Both the position numbers and the translations under genes were made by a program. DNA of 9,819 bases from an uncultured Clostridia bacterium (GTDB lineage Bacteria > Bacillota > Clostridia > Christensenellales > Borkfalkiaceae): positions 1-9,819 of the forward strand of contig CAMWQK010000018.1 in the NCBI GenBank assembly GCA_947176445.1. Reading direction: 5' to 3'. Position 1 is the first letter of the stretch, and each line of letters starts with the position of its first letter. The notes below the pieces were generated by a model. That model made no database searches and had not been told where the DNA came from. It was given only the letters and a program-made list of their open reading frames with translations. Positions 2,157-9,213 of the stretch are shown in pieces.

Positions 2157-4325
2157 ATGTATTTGGCGCTTGGAATTGTATTCTTATTGGCAATCGCTTT
2201 GGGGGGAGTGGGGATCACGGTGACGCTTGTTCGGGCGTCGAAGGACGGTGCGGTTCTGCTCTCGAAGAAGAATTTGTTTTACCTTGCGCCCGTCTTTCTC
2301 GTTCTCTACTTCCTTCATCTGACCGCCGCCCTCTATAACGGCGAAGAGATCGACTTTTTCTATTGCTTTTCGCTTGTCAATTCGACGCTCGACGTGTTTG
2401 CGTTCAAATCGCAGCGCGCGCTCGTCCTGCCCCTGTGCACGGCGCAGCCCATCTTCTATGCGGACTTCATTCTCGCGTACCTCATCGGCATCATCGCCGC
2501 CATTTTAAGCGTTGCAAGTTTCTTCAATCAGCGTATCCGCAACTTTATTGCGGTGCGGCGGCTGCTTCGGAAAAGCTGCGACATCGTGCTCGGCACGTCG
2601 CCCGACGCGATCAGATACGTAAAGAACAACAAAAACAGTTTGGTGCTGGGTGCGGGCGTCTCCCGCAAGGCGTATGCGGAACTCCTCAAAGACGGCACGC
2701 CTGTTTTAAGACTTGCCTTCGAGGCAAAGCCGCTCCTGCGCAAACTCAAACGGCGGGAGCACAACCTGATCGCCTTCCGCGACAGTCGGTTTTCCTACAC
2801 GAAGATTATCGACGTCATCACGGCGATCACGGACGGCGGCGGCAGAGCGAGCGTGCATCTCGAAGCCAATCAGGACGAGATGAAGATCTTGAAGGAGAAG
2901 TTCATCTCGAGCGCGAGCAGCGGAGCGGCGCATATCTACGGGTTCAGCAAGTACGAGTTGATGGCACGCAGATTTGTCGTCGATCATCCGATCACGAAGT
3001 ACATTCCGCGCGATTTCTATAACGAAAATCTCACCTTGAAGAAGGATAAGGAGATCCGCGTCGTATTCGTCGGATTCGGCAAGGTCAACTATCAGCTCTT
3101 CCGCATGTGCGCCATGCAGTTCCAGTTTGCGAAGGAGAAGGGAAAGGGGCTGGTTGCCGCGCCCGTGCAGTATTATGTGTTCGACCACAGCGATACGGCA
3201 CTCCACAACGAATTTTTCTCCCGCATTCTCTTTGAGGCGGACGAGGAGTTCCGCGATTGCGACTTCCCTGAGCCCGAAGAGATCTGCAAGATCAAGACGC
3301 AGCACGTGGATATCAACTCGATCGAGGTGAAAAAGCAGTTCAAATCGCTCGTCGGGAAAGACGCATACACCTACTTTATCGTCTCGCTCGAAAGCGATCT
3401 CGAAGACGCATCGTACGCGCAGACGATCAGGCGGCTACTTCCGGAGAACGGGAACTATAAGATCTTCGTCCGTGCGAAGAACGCCTCGAAGGAGCGGCTG
3501 AACGGCGAGGACGACGAGCTCATCTACTTCGGCGAGGAGCGCGCGCTCTACACGCACGAGAACATCGTCAACAACGATCTTGCGGAGCTTGCCAAGCGGA
3601 TCAACCTCATGTACAACGGCATTAAGGATAAGCCGAAGTGGCTCACAGATCTCCGCGGGGACAGCGCGCTGACGCCGAAAGAGCGGGAAGCAGCACTTCG
3701 GGCGCATATGGCGGACCCGAAGAAGCGTGCGTATATGGATGGGCTGTGGAATAACCTCATCTATATCAAGCAGGCGTCCAACCTGTATCACGCGCTTAAT
3801 CTTCCCTTCAAGCTGAACATGCTGGGCTTCGATATGGTCAAGAACGTCACGGCGGCGGATAAACTTGTCTCCGAAGCCGACTTCAATAAGGTCTATCGGA
3901 ACAGCGGCAGGGGGAGCGGTTACAACAACTATTCGTTCTACTTCGGGCTGGAATCGAGTAACGTGCTCGCATTCATCGAACATCTGCGCTGGAATGCGCT
4001 CTACATTCTTTGCGACTATCGGCAGATGAAAAAAGCCGATATGACCGAGGTCGAGGAACTGGGCGAGGGGATCAGAAATCTCAACCATCAGAACAACGAT
4101 AAAAAACAGCACGCGTGCATTACGACGTATAGCGGGCTGGACGAGCTCGTAAGGTTCAAGTATAGCTATCTGTGTTCGGGCAAGAAGTTCGACGCATCGC
4201 GGTTCGGCTCGGACAAACAGATGCAGGAGCTTGCGAAGATTTACACGTACGACTACATGGACCTCGACCGTCTTTACAGCGAGGTCATCACGATGGGCTA
4301 CGAAATCATAGAGCTCAAAAATTAA
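2157..4325 (+). CDS. Membrane protein with two Rossmann/TrkA-N-like regions and a RyR-domain-like C-terminus, function unknown
   Basis: A 722-residue protein. Three hydrophobic helices occupy about 3-25, 40-60 and 102-123; the rest is soluble. Two segments look like nucleotide-binding Rossmann folds: SLVLGAGVSRKAY (161-173), and IRVVFVGFGKVNYQLFR (300-316) with a GxGxxN glycine loop and following beta/alpha pattern, including YYVFDHSD (339-346). The C-terminal part has EHLRWNALYILCDYRQM (608-624) and, further on, KKQHACITTYSGLDEL (649-664). That EHxRWN ... KxHxCLxxYxxL arrangement is typical of RyR-like segments in bacterial NAD-binding/TrkA-N proteins. By analogy it may sense a nucleotide or couple an ion or ligand signal at the membrane, but no reaction can be assigned. 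Own promoter upstream, own terminator downstream, no operon partner. The domain reading rests on motif recall, so the gene boundaries are far surer than the function. Confidence 0.8.
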   Translation: MYLALGIVFLLAIALGGVGITVTLVRASKDGAVLLSKKNLFYLAPVFLVLYFLHLTAALYNGEEIDFFYCFSLVNSTLDVFAFKSQRALVLPLCTAQPIFYADFILAYLIGIIAAILSVASFFNQRIRNFIAVRRLLRKSCDIVLGTSPDAIRYVKNNKNSLVLGAGVSRKAYAELLKDGTPVLRLAFEAKPLLRKLKRREHNLIAFRDSRFSYTKIIDVITAITDGGGRASVHLEANQDEMKILKEKFISSASSGAAHIYGFSKYELMARRFVVDHPITKYIPRDFYNENLTLKKDKEIRVVFVGFGKVNYQLFRMCAMQFQFAKEKGKGLVAAPVQYYVFDHSDTALHNEFFSRILFEADEEFRDCDFPEPEEICKIKTQHVDINSIEVKKQFKSLVGKDAYTYFIVSLESDLEDASYAQTIRRLLPENGNYKIFVRAKNASKERLNGEDDELIYFGEERALYTHENIVNNDLAELAKRINLMYNGIKDKPKWLTDLRGDSALTPKEREAALRAHMADPKKRAYMDGLWNNLIYIKQASNLYHALNLPFKLNMLGFDMVKNVTAADKLVSEADFNKVYRNSGRGSGYNNYSFYFGLESSNVLAFIEHLRWNALYILCDYRQMKKADMTEVEELGEGIRNLNHQNNDKKQHACITTYSGLDELVRFKYSYLCSGKKFDASRFGSDKQMQELAKIYTYDYMDLDRLYSEVITMGYEIIELKN

Positions 4326-6769: not shown

Positions 6770-6794
6770 CCGTCGGTTAAAAACAGCATAAAAT

Positions 6795-6821
6795 AAAAAC
6801 CGCGGGTTGTCCGCGGTTTTT
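6795..6821 (-). terminator. Terminator of veg
   Basis: A perfect 11-base inverted repeat, AAAAACCGCGG / CCGCGGTTTTT, with loop GTTGT, begins 26 bases after the veg stop. Because A and T runs flank both sides it could work in both directions, but only veg reads into it. It isolates veg transcription from spoIIE. Confidence 0.88.
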
Positions 6822-6846
6822 ACTTGTTCTTCGCCCGACAGGGCGC

Positions 6847-7214: not shown

Positions 7215-8702
7215 ATGGCAATTAAAACGCAAATGGAAACCTTCCGCACACTCGGAAAAGTGTGCGAGCTCAATCCGCAGACGGCCGTCGAATGCAAGTT
7301 CGGGCAGGATGCGGTCACCGTACTCTCGGCGAATGCGACCGCCGCGCTCTCGGGTGCGGAGGCGGGCAACGGCGAGGTGCGCTACTTCGGCAAGGCGCTC
7401 TTCTCGCTCGTCTACGAGGATGCGGAAAAGCACGTCTGCCGTGCGGAAAAGGGGGTGGAGTTCACCGCCAAGGTGCAGGATGAGCACGTATATCCCGCCA
7501 TGACCGCCCGCGCAAACATTGCGGTGGAGAACGTCTCCGTGCGCCGCGAGGGCGCGAGCGTGTATCTCACGGCGCTCCTCGGGGCAGACATCTCCCTCTT
7601 CGGCGATTGCAATATCGACTATCTCGCAGACGGGGAGATCATCGTCAAGCACGAGCCGTTTACCGCCGTGACTGCGCACCTTTGCGGCGGCGCGACGGAG
7701 GCGGAGGACGAGTTCGAGACCGACTGTATCGGCGATATCCTGCTCCACAGCGAGTCGGTGAACGTGACGGACGTCGTATGCGAGACGGGAACGCTCCGCG
7801 CCGAGGGTGAGATCAATCTCGGCATCCTCGCCTTAAAGGGCGAAAACGATCTCGTGTCGTTCGAGCGGCTCGTACCCTTCCGCGTGGAGATCCCCTGCGA
7901 AGAGGCGGCGTTCAATATGAGCGGCGAGGCGCACGTCTCCGTGGGCGGGGTTGCGCTCCGCGCCGAGGCGGACGAGGCGCGCGGCAAGTGCAAGATCACG
8001 GCGGAATTTTCTCTGAACGTAGAGGGGTGCGTGTATGAAGAGGTGTCGGTCGACGGCATCGTGGACGCATACTCCAAGGAATGTAAATTAAAGGTACTGC
8101 GCGGCGAGCTCAATAGCTGCGGCGCGGGCGAGATCGTGCGGCTGACCGAGCGCATTTCGGGCAGAGCGGCGCTCTCGGGCACGGTGGATTTCTCCGACGT
8201 GTTGCAGGCGGTGACGTTGCAGCGCGCCGAGGCAAACATCGTCAACGGCGAAGACGGCAAGCGCCTCGAAGGCGTGGAGCTTGCAACGCTGCTCGTGCGC
8301 GGCTCGGACGGCTCGCACCGCGGGATCGAGATGAGTTTGCCCTTCTCCATCCCCGTACAGGTGGAAGGGGATTGCACGGTAAGCGTGTTTGCGTGCGGCA
8401 CGGCGGCGCGCCAGAAGCAGGAGGGCGAGATCGAAGTCGAAGCGACGCTGAAAATCACGGTGCAGAAGAGCAAGCACATTCATGCCGAATTCGTAACGGG
8501 CGTTGAGGAAGGCGAGCCGATCGTCGAGAGCGACAGCGCGATCAGCGTATTCATTCCGCGCGCGGGCGACGGGCTGTGGGAGCTTTCAAAACAGCTGAAC
8601 AAGTCCCCCGAAGAGGTCGCCGAGAACAATCCGGACATCGAGTTCCCCGTCAAAGAGGGGCAGCGCGTGATCATCTACCGCAAGAAGAGCCTGAACAAAT
8701 AA
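7215..8702 (+). CDS. sipL: SPOCS-domain (DUF3794) and LysM spore-coat morphogenesis protein, SipL/SpoVID-like
   Basis: A 495-residue protein made of three consecutive beta-rich SPOCS-like regions (about 10-130, 155-290 and 310-430) and a C-terminal LysM domain (about 444-491: VFIPRAGDGLWELSKQLN ... NNPDIEFPVKEGQRVIIY). This is the architecture of Clostridioides difficile SipL, the functional counterpart of Bacillus SpoVID. It binds the ATPase SpoIVA and anchors the coat base layer on the mother-cell side of the forespore, with LysM contributing to envelope attachment and SpoIVA binding. There is no signal peptide, as expected for a mother-cell cytoplasmic protein. The start at 7215 is chosen over the in-frame ATG at 7182 because GGGGAG (7200-7205) precedes it at nine bases and because 7182 falls inside the sigma-E -10. 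Divergent from veg; convergent with the RNA-like unit to the right. The symbol rests on architecture, so orthology is likely but not proven. Confidence 0.88.
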   Translation: MAIKTQMETFRTLGKVCELNPQTAVECKFGQDAVTVLSANATAALSGAEAGNGEVRYFGKALFSLVYEDAEKHVCRAEKGVEFTAKVQDEHVYPAMTARANIAVENVSVRREGASVYLTALLGADISLFGDCNIDYLADGEIIVKHEPFTAVTAHLCGGATEAEDEFETDCIGDILLHSESVNVTDVVCETGTLRAEGEINLGILALKGENDLVSFERLVPFRVEIPCEEAAFNMSGEAHVSVGGVALRAEADEARGKCKITAEFSLNVEGCVYEEVSVDGIVDAYSKECKLKVLRGELNSCGAGEIVRLTERISGRAALSGTVDFSDVLQAVTLQRAEANIVNGEDGKRLEGVELATLLVRGSDGSHRGIEMSLPFSIPVQVEGDCTVSVFACGTAARQKQEGEIEVEATLKITVQKSKHIHAEFVTGVEEGEPIVESDSAISVFIPRAGDGLWELSKQLNKSPEEVAENNPDIEFPVKEGQRVIIYRKKSLNK

Positions 8703-8718
8703 TATCGCGAAAATATGA

Positions 8719-8755
8719 AAACCCTCCCCCGTCGCCGACGGGGGAGGGGATTTTT
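8719..8755. terminator. Strong bidirectional terminator behind the SipL-like gene
   Basis: A perfect 12-base stem, CCCTCCCCCGTC (8722-8733) / GACGGGGGAGGG (8737-8748), with loop GCC. TTTTT (8751-8755) follows on the + strand, and on the - strand the stem is followed by TTTTCATATTTT. It can end both the sipL message and leftward transcription from the promoter at 9186-9213. Confidence 0.9.
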
Positions 8756-8898
8756 CTATTCAGTTGTCGGAGTGGAGTTCGCTTCGACTTTTTGAGTTTT
8801 CCGATTGATACCGTGCGCGCGGTCACACTTCGGCGCGCCATGTTACTCAGCCGTTATTTTGCCACCCTTGTCAAATGGTACGTTGGTCTGTCCTCCTT

Positions 8899-8937
8899 TT
8901 ATCCGAGCTTCACGCTCTGCAAAGAGATGATTTTCAT
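8899..8937 (-). CDS. Possible 12-codon micro-ORF within the RNA-like unit
   Basis: GGAGGT (8946-8951, - strand) sits eight bases before ATG 8937, which opens MKIISLQSVKLG and stops at TAA (8901-8899). The ribosome-binding site lies in the loop of the CATATCG/CGATATG stem (8935-8957), and the start codon is in its 3' arm, so initiation could be controlled by structure. A second AAGGAGG follows the stop directly (8892-8898) but no ATG, GTG or TTG occurs at a useful distance. This looks like a leader peptide without its gene, or a chance match. Confidence 0.25.
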   Translation of the reverse strand: MKIISLQSVKLG

Positions 8938-9048
8938 ATCGCTGTACCTCCGATATGATAGATTGTCTGAAGACCGTACGACCTTCCGCAGTCTCCCTGT
9001 GAGGGCGGACGTTCCGTCCGCATTTCAGTCCGTTGCCCGAAAGAACAC

Positions 9049-9081
9049 TTTCTTAGTACATCGGAGTAAACCTACCTTTTT
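9049..9081. repeat. 33-bp direct repeat, copy 1
   Basis: TTTCTTAGTACATCGGAGTA at the left end, running on through AACCTACC to a T-run. It is identical to the copy at 9106-9138 except for two A/G differences, and offset by 57 bases. Weaker similarity extends about 20 bases to the left in both copies, so the repeated unit is about 52-57 bases and includes a CCGA...TCGG stem. Confidence 0.85.
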
Positions 9082-9105
9082 GAGTTTTTCTGTCCGATAG
9101 AGCGT

Positions 9106-9138
9106 TTTCTTAGTGCATCGGAGTAAACCTGCCTTTTT
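9106..9138. repeat. 33-bp direct repeat, copy 2
   Basis: Second copy of the repeat at 9049-9081, with G instead of A at two places (TTAGTGCA, CCTGCC). It lies nearer the leftward promoter, so in RNA terms it is the first copy. Confidence 0.85.
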
Positions 9139-9146
9139 TGTTTAGG

Positions 9147-9169
9147 AATAACATTTCATGAAAGTTATT
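9147..9169. promoter_or_regulatory. Palindrome just downstream of the leftward promoter: 5' hairpin or operator
   Basis: AATAAC-A-TTTCATGAAA-GTTATT: outer six-base arms around a perfect ten-base palindrome, about 10-32 bases into the predicted leftward transcript. In RNA it would form a 5' stem-loop; in DNA it has the form of a repressor operator. Confidence 0.4.
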
Positions 9170-9185
9170 TTCTTTTTGTACCCTT

Positions 9186-9213
9186 ATTATAGCACAGGAT
9201 TTTCATTTGTCAA
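9186..9213 (-). promoter_or_regulatory. Consensus leftward sigma-A promoter with no protein gene behind it
   Basis: On the - strand: perfect TTGACA (9213-9208), a 16-base spacer, and perfect TATAAT (9191-9186) with an extended TGC just ahead. The start would be near 9179. It lies beyond the end of the germination gene and points away from it into 9179-8756. Confidence 0.8.

Follow-up and report, generated by a model that had tools for sequence, protein, structure and literature searches.

A predicted stand-alone RNA gene with a row of conserved tiny reading frames in one clostridial family

The window, i. e. the whole stretch of 9,819 nucleotides that was analysed, is contig C18 of an uncultured clostridial genome of 1.07 Mb which is 64% complete. 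Its genes are, in this order, a SASA-type esterase (+ strand), a 722-aa protein without a Pfam match (2157-4325, +), SpoIIE (-), Veg (-), a SipL/SPOCS-domain protein (+) and the C-terminal part of a GerAC-like protein (-). The locus described here lies between the SipL/SPOCS-domain gene and the GerAC-like gene, and a DNA search found one copy of it in this genome. Its features are:

9186..9213, minus strand: promoter, with TTGACA at 9213-9208, a 16-nt spacer, TATAAT at 9191-9186 and an extended -10 TG; 12 of 12 positions match the consensus
9147..9169, minus strand: 5' hairpin P1 (AATAAC...GTTATT), just downstream of the predicted start; weak when folded alone in the window (z -0.6)
9091..9138, minus strand: copy 1 of a 48-nt direct repeat, containing ORF1a
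9110..9118, minus strand: ORF1a, ATG CAC TAA (Met-His-stop), preceded by a weak AGG-type Shine-Dalgarno sequence
9034..9081, minus strand: copy 2 of the direct repeat, containing ORF1b; 85% identical to copy 1 and 57 nt apart from it
9053..9061, minus strand: ORF1b, ATG TAC TAA (Met-Tyr-stop), read from the sequence
8936..8956, minus strand: ORF2 hairpin ATATCG-(GAGGTACAG)-CGATAT, with the ORF2 Shine-Dalgarno sequence in its loop and part of the ORF2 ATG paired (z -1.2)
8899..8937, minus strand: ORF2, 12 codons, MKIISLQSVKLG, with the Shine-Dalgarno sequence GGAGG at 8951-8947
8892..8896, minus strand: GGAGG Shine-Dalgarno sequence of ORF3, directly behind the ORF2 stop; its four G columns are invariant in 43 loci (alignment A3)
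8854..8883, minus strand: ORF3, ACG TAC CAT TTG ACA AGG GTG GCA AAA TAA; frame and stop are kept, and the start is ACG here and ATG in most relatives
8758..8767, minus strand: conserved 3' motif ACAACTGAAT
8722..8748, both strands: two-way intrinsic terminator, a 12-bp stem with T-rich tails on both strands

An initial annotation had proposed that a perfect TTGACA-16-TATAAT promoter with an extended -10 fires leftward into a stretch without a protein gene, and that the transcript ends at a strong bidirectional terminator. These elements were all found: The promoter is the best of eight promoter-like sites in the window, where 3.8 were expected, and gives a predicted transcription start near 9179 on the minus strand; the sense strand is free of ORFs of at least 60 aa between 8749 and 9185; and the terminator has the stem and tails listed above. 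The only listed ORF crossing the gap is a plus-strand frame (8576-9100), whose start is inside the SipL gene. In the relatives described below, the three antisense frames within 250 nt around ORF3 are stop-free in 13, 1 and 7 of 78 loci, and a protein gene on the opposite strand was rejected, as none of these frames is open throughout. We attributed 503 pairs of similar ORFs of at least 40 aa among the loci to similar DNA and did not take them as genes. A further two-way terminator-like inverted repeat lies at 6791-6825, between SpoIIE and Veg.

The region had also been described as full of stems and as containing a repeated stem-loop unit. The repeat exists, but the stability of its stem-loop is no better than that of shuffles (z 0.0 and +0.7 for the two copies); what is repeated is a two-codon reading frame together with its surroundings (ATGCACTAA, ATGTACTAA). 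With its terminator, the minus-strand RNA does have a more stable fold than its shuffles, of which 1 in 100 was as good (z -2.5), but that of the plus strand is more stable still (z -4.7).

A BLAST search at the DNA level found relatives in 57 of 301 genomes of the window's family. The model R1, which covers the promoter and about 70 nt, gave hits at E <= 1e-5 in 163 of these 301 genomes and in 7 of 18 genera, a count that includes hits in g5, g6 and g10, genera not counted as members. R1 was built from 68 loci and uses sequence only; the RNAalifold consensus of the mixed 68-sequence alignment contained no base pair. Members were determined by reading loci of g1, g3, g6, g8, g10 and g11, and true relatives were seen in g1, g3, g8 and g11. 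The R1 hits read in g6 and g10 were rejected: In g6, the locus L179 leads into a membrane-protein-like frame, and the g10 loci L149 and L191 contain another RNA-like unit. The comparison of the loci thus argues convincingly for conservation in at least four genera of one clostridial family, and the unit extends far beyond the strain, whereas the initial annotation had named a restriction to the strain as a refutation. In 396 genomes of the order, the best R1 hit outside the family had E = 1.1e-4; because many hits of similar size followed it, these hits were taken as chance. A 25-base pattern of the 5' end was found in 59 stretches of named species genomes, including Candidatus Gallimonas, Candidatus Coproplasma and many unnamed Clostridia, lineages which we take to belong to the GTDB family Borkfalkiaceae; one of the 59, from Moraniibacteriota, is a likely chance hit. 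The 5' pattern had no hit in viral contigs, and a phage or virus origin was rejected. One genome of genus g11 (G029) contains two such loci, L176 and L177, on different contigs.

The unit seen in g10 was encountered in six loci (L172, L173, L174, L175, L191, L149) of the genera g1, g8 and g10. It has the same promoter type, TTGACA-16-TATAAT, followed by GGYACAAC or GGTACAAAC and by AAGG or CAGG, and leads into a long stretch. Five of these loci, L149 not among them, were scanned with Rfam and gave no match; the unit may be a further unknown RNA of the family. In the g3 locus L190, which comes from a genome (G252) with 6% contamination, the same promoter type precedes a short frame with ACTCCAATGAAC as start context and then a lipoprotein-like gene. 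The 5' part may be a unit that this protein gene has borrowed, or an ancestral one.

The RNA could be placed with a pattern in 95 of 116 loci, 68 of them distinct; the 21 unplaced loci were omitted, among them L019, where the RNA is present by eye. The loci follow a common plan. Behind the promoter and the 5' hairpin comes a tiny first frame, then RNA with predicted stems, a second frame that has a strong Shine-Dalgarno sequence, a third frame directly behind it, a folded 3' part, usually a motif of AACTGAAT type, and a terminator-like hairpin. The spacer of the promoter is 16 nt long in all 79 placed loci and the extended -10 TG is present in 78 of them; since the placing pattern fixes the two hexamers loosely and allows spacers of 15-19 nt, the spacer is informative, the hexamers less so. 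At the other end, the AACTGAAT-type motif occurs in 84 of 92 loci, and its combination with a terminator-like hairpin within 55 nt in 75 of 92, as compared to 2 of 460 mononucleotide-shuffled controls. In these 75 loci, the distance from the predicted start to the 3' motif is 282-847 nt with a median of 399.

Covariation was assessed in alignments (A2-A4) that do not contain the g8-type locus L048; A4 is also without L015 and L096. In 43 loci of the type of the window's genus (g1-type), P1 has 7 cells changed on both sides, a count reached by none of 500 shuffles, which do not keep relatedness, and its covariation score is higher than in every shuffle and each of the six slid pairings. The +2 slide has as many pairs with double changes (3), however, and the +3 slide has a higher cell count (8). 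The 3' domain, analysed in 41 loci, is formed by an outer helix TCGRCTT/AAGYCGA plus GCGG/CCGC. Changes on both sides are seen in 20 cells, a count that no shuffle out of 500 reaches, and the covariation score is reached by 2 of 500; both values are higher than in any slide. The number of pair types does not exceed that of the shuffles (112 of 500). A second small hairpin (GGG...CCC), which is out of register in the alignment, is omitted from this count. The ORF2 hairpin is kept in most of the 43 g1-type loci (82% of cells paired) and has no covariation above shuffles there; it is conserved sequence with a predicted stem only. Covarying stems, which the initial annotation had named as support for its reading, are hence present in P1 and the 3' domain, but not in the ORF2 hairpin.

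The 5' region of g8-type loci carries AATGTTR-NNNNNN-AACATT or a similar sequence about 30-50 nt after the -10 (e.g. L025, L027, L038, L042). Among 50 loci caught by the pattern, 27, all of g8-type, contain a perfect 6-nt palindrome (GGTACC 11, GCGCGC 8, GACGTC 3, GCTAGC 3, GGCGCC 1, ACGCGT 1); no palindrome is found in two g8-type loci (L026, L077) and in 21 g1-type loci. Because its inner four bases are unable to pair within one hairpin, this covarying palindrome points to pairing between two RNAs, possibly by a kissing loop in RNA dimers, or to a DNA operator.

With respect to its coding content, the locus differs from the non-coding sequence that had been assumed initially: Its relatives have tiny frames in rows, often behind a Shine-Dalgarno sequence, and it is as frames that these are conserved. 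In 92 loci, the number of Shine-Dalgarno-ATG starts per RNA is 2.38, as compared to 0.24 after dinucleotide shuffling; at most 16 codons are found in 199 of 219 frames, as compared to 218 of 446 in the shuffles. In the window itself, the strict Shine-Dalgarno-start pattern finds one start only, that of ORF2. The first ORF has 2-6 codons in 65 of 68 loci, where it stands behind a Shine-Dalgarno-like motif (loosely defined) and thus has the make-up of a minigene, i. e. a Shine-Dalgarno sequence, a start, a few codons and a stop. ORF2 was called in 60 of 68 loci; its length is 8-16 codons except for three fusions of 29 codons, its peptide has the recurring endings LKIS/LKIK or KGR, and in L005, L088 and L101 it begins with ATGTAC. 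The ORF3 start follows the ORF2 stop after 15 nt in most g1-type and after 6 nt in most g8-type loci (exceptions are L024, L033, L026, L031, L061 and L079), distances at which the two stay in frame with each other. The spacing between Shine-Dalgarno sequence and ATG is conserved in the alignment as well. ORF3 is present in 78 of 79 loci with 8-13 codons and starts with ATG in 70, GTG in 4 and ACG in 4 cases; it was found by means of ATG, GTG or ACG, a second codon TAC or AAC, and its length, so that the second codon, and in part also the length, are given by the search itself. We dropped the idea that NAC second codons are a queuosine signal, as many first frames have AAR or ACN at this position.

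The 41 ten-codon copies of ORF3 always have a stop as eleventh codon (28 TAA, 7 TGA, 6 TAG). In L015 and L140, the stop at codon eleven is lost and ORF3 runs on to 13 codons. Nearest-neighbour comparison of ORF3 gave 20 synonymous and 59 other codon changes, i. e. 25% synonymous (28% for all pairs), as compared to 21% expected without selection. The ORF3 peptide thus appears nearly free to change, while start, length and stop are kept. For ORF2, the corresponding numbers are 41 and 75, i. e. 35% versus about 22% expected, which suggests a mild constraint on the peptide. Ribosomes probably use most of the frames.

A further indication comes from nine sites, three in g1 loci (L018, L020, L021) and six in g3 loci, at which an upstream frame with its own Shine-Dalgarno sequence runs in frame through the start motif of the next. 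All nine fused sites carry ACG, AAG or CAG in the position of the ATG, and all 65 ATG sites are unfused; the loose motif used for this count also caught 37 unfused sites without ATG, mostly by chance and including one GTG start (L014), and did not catch the ACG of the window. The nine fusions come from few clades and represent perhaps two or three events. Loss of the ATG upon fusion would be expected if this start codon is in use and its stop is the end that matters. ORF3 of the window is the exception, as it has ACG without a fusion. Its use is doubtful because it starts with ACG although ORF2 stops before it; ACG may be a weak start, or the frame may be decaying here.

The first frames can be multiplied. 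The window has two of them (MH and MY), the g8 locus L136 contains three near-identical units, each consisting of ATGACTTTTAAG or ATGACTTATACT, a stop and then the stem CCGCGAAAGCGG, and the g11 locus L177 has three near-identical units (M-I-A, M-F-A, M-T-A) with a CCTCC...GGAGG stem within a few bases of each stop. In L177, judged by eye, GGAAC...GTTCC could form a pseudoknot with the CCTCC...GGAGG stem; more units were read by eye in g3 and g11 loci. Number and length of the frames vary between genera, and the rest of the plan is constant. The 36 nt after the stop of the first frame have a mean folding energy of -6.9 kcal/mol; random places in these RNAs give -5.2 and shuffles -5.1. The values are based on the 85 of 92 loci that have a first frame by rule, which is mis-assigned in L025 and perhaps in some more. 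The RNA after first stops is somewhat more stable than random, a modest excess. In the window, the 36-nt fold test found no stem behind the stop of ORF1a.

No known family accounts for the locus. Rfam 15 gave no match in the window at the gathering threshold, and a relaxed search of the region (E <= 5) gave chance-level matches only, the best having 20.4 bits where 65 are needed. In 19 further loci (14 relatives and five of the second RNA-like unit), the only match was a tRNA gene at L177, on the same strand as the RNA and about 0.84 kb after the promoter. The initial annotation, which did not recognise a family, is borne out by the window and the 14 relatives. The raiA motif RNA (RF03072) had no match in the window or in the further loci scanned. 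It was found in 0 of 61 genomes of the window's family and in 51 of 151 genomes of the order, with no control genome matching in the scan of the family; we make no claim that the RNA replaces raiA, as 100 of 151 order genomes are also without a raiA match. Neither ARAGORN nor Rfam found tmRNA (RF00023) in the window, ARAGORN found no tRNA there either, and the covariance model of 6S RNA (RF00013) had no match in it. Within the family, tmRNA is above cut-off in 38 of 41 genomes (not in the window's own, incomplete genome) and 6S RNA in 21 of 41, including the window's own genome, where it is on contig C20. A replacement of tmRNA or 6S RNA was rejected, as both are found in the family.

Several known systems share single traits with this RNA. 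tmRNA and 6S RNA are abundant RNAs that likewise stand alone, and tmRNA also offers ribosomes a short frame. The lambda bar minigenes are very short start-stop frames in which translation rather than the product is active. RNAIII and SgrS are dual-function sRNAs, and the orphan RNAs OLE, ROOL and GOLLD have Rfam entries, whereas the present RNA has no Rfam match. For the axe-txe minigene mg2, the relevant passages of PMC8708949 describe higher expression upon translation of a two-codon mini-ORF in cis, possibly because the mRNA is protected; the likeness consists in a very short start-stop frame whose translation and not whose product is active. In contrast to mg2, which acts in cis within a transcript of protein genes (PMC8708949, same passages), the row of frames constitutes here a whole stand-alone unit without a protein gene. 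Among the matches listed, this two-codon minigene is the nearest published idea. The raiA motif RNA, or ModT, is a structured RNA of Bacillota like the present one; according to the main text of PMC11706538, where the term "open reading frame" does not occur, it affects sporulation in C. difficile and has a role in the transition from growth to sporulation. The dual-function sRNA VcdRP combines a regulatory part with a reading frame, and as far as the passages on it in PMC8672173 go, this is one frame for a small protein of 29 aa; the present RNA has several frames of mostly 2-16 codons, the last being nearly free in peptide sequence. OLE, ROOL and GOLLD are structured RNAs that form kissing loops and homo-oligomers, which recalls the covarying 6-nt palindromes near the 5' end of the g8 RNA, and their description in the pertinent part of PMC12286853 contains no array of reading frames. 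No such RNA was among the matches listed in open-licence PubMed Central papers; a candidate list such as that of PMC8040213 could hold it unnamed.

We explain these findings tentatively as follows. The window contains at 8722-9213 (minus strand) one copy of a predicted RNA gene that may act by attracting ribosomes to frames which mostly have 2-16 codons, a reading to which we give somewhat less than an even chance. After firing of the promoter, ribosomes would initiate at the mini-frames and terminate a few codons on, beside or within structured RNA. Each initiation and termination would melt or hold the neighbouring stem, so that the fold of the RNA, and hence its stability or the binding of partners, would be set by the translation-start activity of the cell; the RNA would serve the growing cell as a regulator that acts in trans and is gated by translation. 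What sequence comparison demonstrates is the predicted framework, namely a fixed promoter, a 5' hairpin, a row of mini-frames, a covarying 3' domain, the 3' motif and a terminator. We regard it as nearly certain that the locus is a gene-like unit and that both it and its tiny frames are conserved. If the reading above is right, translation and its stop are likely of more weight than the peptides; the proposal that translation itself is what counts, and that the RNA is a translation-gated regulator acting in trans, is tentative and at best as probable as the reading of the window given above. Of the independent non-coding RNA gene that had been proposed initially, the separate, conserved unit with covarying helices and without an Rfam family stands, and "non-coding" has to be given up on account of the conserved tiny frames.

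The genomic context bears on the alternative that the RNA is a cis-acting leader or attenuator of a downstream gene, which would be SpoIIE at some of the g1-type loci. Attenuators typically have short leader frames, and among the 39 g1-type loci, SpoIIE follows on the same strand in 16, GerAC lies upstream on the same strand in 17, and both are found in 6. The sporulation neighbourhood noted initially is a mark of the window's genus type: A GerAC or SpoIIE match is present in the flanks of 31 of 39 g1-type loci, but of 0 of 29 g8-type loci, the scanned flanks being about 1-7 kb long and many of those of g1-type only 1.5 kb. Moreover, SipL and Veg separate the RNA from SpoIIE in the window, where SipL is the next gene and convergent, and the RNA is inverted relative to SpoIIE or GerAC in four g1-type loci (L010, L088, L101, L110). 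The RNA is therefore its own unit. No single conserved protein gene, as a leader-peptide attenuator has it in cis and as the initial annotation had considered as a counter-argument, lies downstream, since the neighbours vary in identity and strand, and 75 of 92 loci have the terminator-like hairpin behind the 3' motif. A leader of SpoIIE was rejected on synteny, and a role as cis-acting leader or attenuator is very improbable.

The three other alternatives retain a stand-alone RNA and differ in what the frames are for. If they only loaded ribosomes for protection of the RNA against nucleases, a role suggested for the axe-txe minigene, the functional part would be the structured 3' domain, which is indeed conserved here, and the effect of the two-codon mini-ORF in cis (reported in the passages of PMC8708949 cited above) is a precedent; several frames in fixed order and spacing exceed, however, the needs of simple protection, and we consider this explanation rather unlikely. 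A structured RNA acting in trans, similar in kind to 6S, raiA or sponge RNAs, with GGAGG sequences as binding sites for protein or RNA and short frames as by-products of GGA-rich loops bearing AUG, would fit the strong consensus promoter, the covarying 5' and 3' domains and the repeated GGAGG motifs. Yet a plain binding motif is not expected to keep stops as a class of three triplets, to maintain the spacing to the ATG and to lose the ATG where an upstream frame takes over, which makes this alternative unlikely and a little more so than the former. Lowest among the three we place a messenger for several very small working peptides, an operon of products of 2-16 residues in which folds only tune translation: The mild purifying selection on ORF2, its recurring endings and the preservation of frames and stops argue for it, but ORF1 has merely 2-6 codons, ORF3 drifts almost neutrally, and number and length of the frames differ between genera while the rest of the plan is unchanged.

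The translation-gated regulator has to be held against several findings, too. In the window, ORF3 starts with ACG, ORF1a has a weak Shine-Dalgarno sequence and no stem, and only the ORF2 start conforms to the strict pattern. In the family, the peptide constraint on ORF2, with which a peptide role stays conceivable, the small number of clades with fusions, the ORF2 hairpin without covariation, the measures of P1 and the 3' domain that are not above controls, and the loss of the stop in L015 and L140 were likewise counted against it.

If the translation-gated regulator exists, it could represent a class of RNA that is new in bacteria, a "polycistron" that stands alone and consists of start-stop mini-frames, each of them positioned at or within a stem, with ribosomes as moving parts by which the RNA reads the capacity for translation initiation and sets its own fold; in g8, the RNA would additionally pair with itself via a palindromic loop. 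We regard this generalisation as speculative but conceivable. With 92 loci for comparison, direct tests are possible. It is customary to classify RNA genes as coding or non-coding; here, the frames are too short for a protein and at least the last peptide drifts, yet starts, lengths and stops are kept across genera. If true, the proposed mode of action would explain how such a gene can escape both protein annotation and screens for non-coding RNAs. If ribosomes really act on the RNA, it would receive translation as a mechanical input, and this without being the leader of a protein gene.
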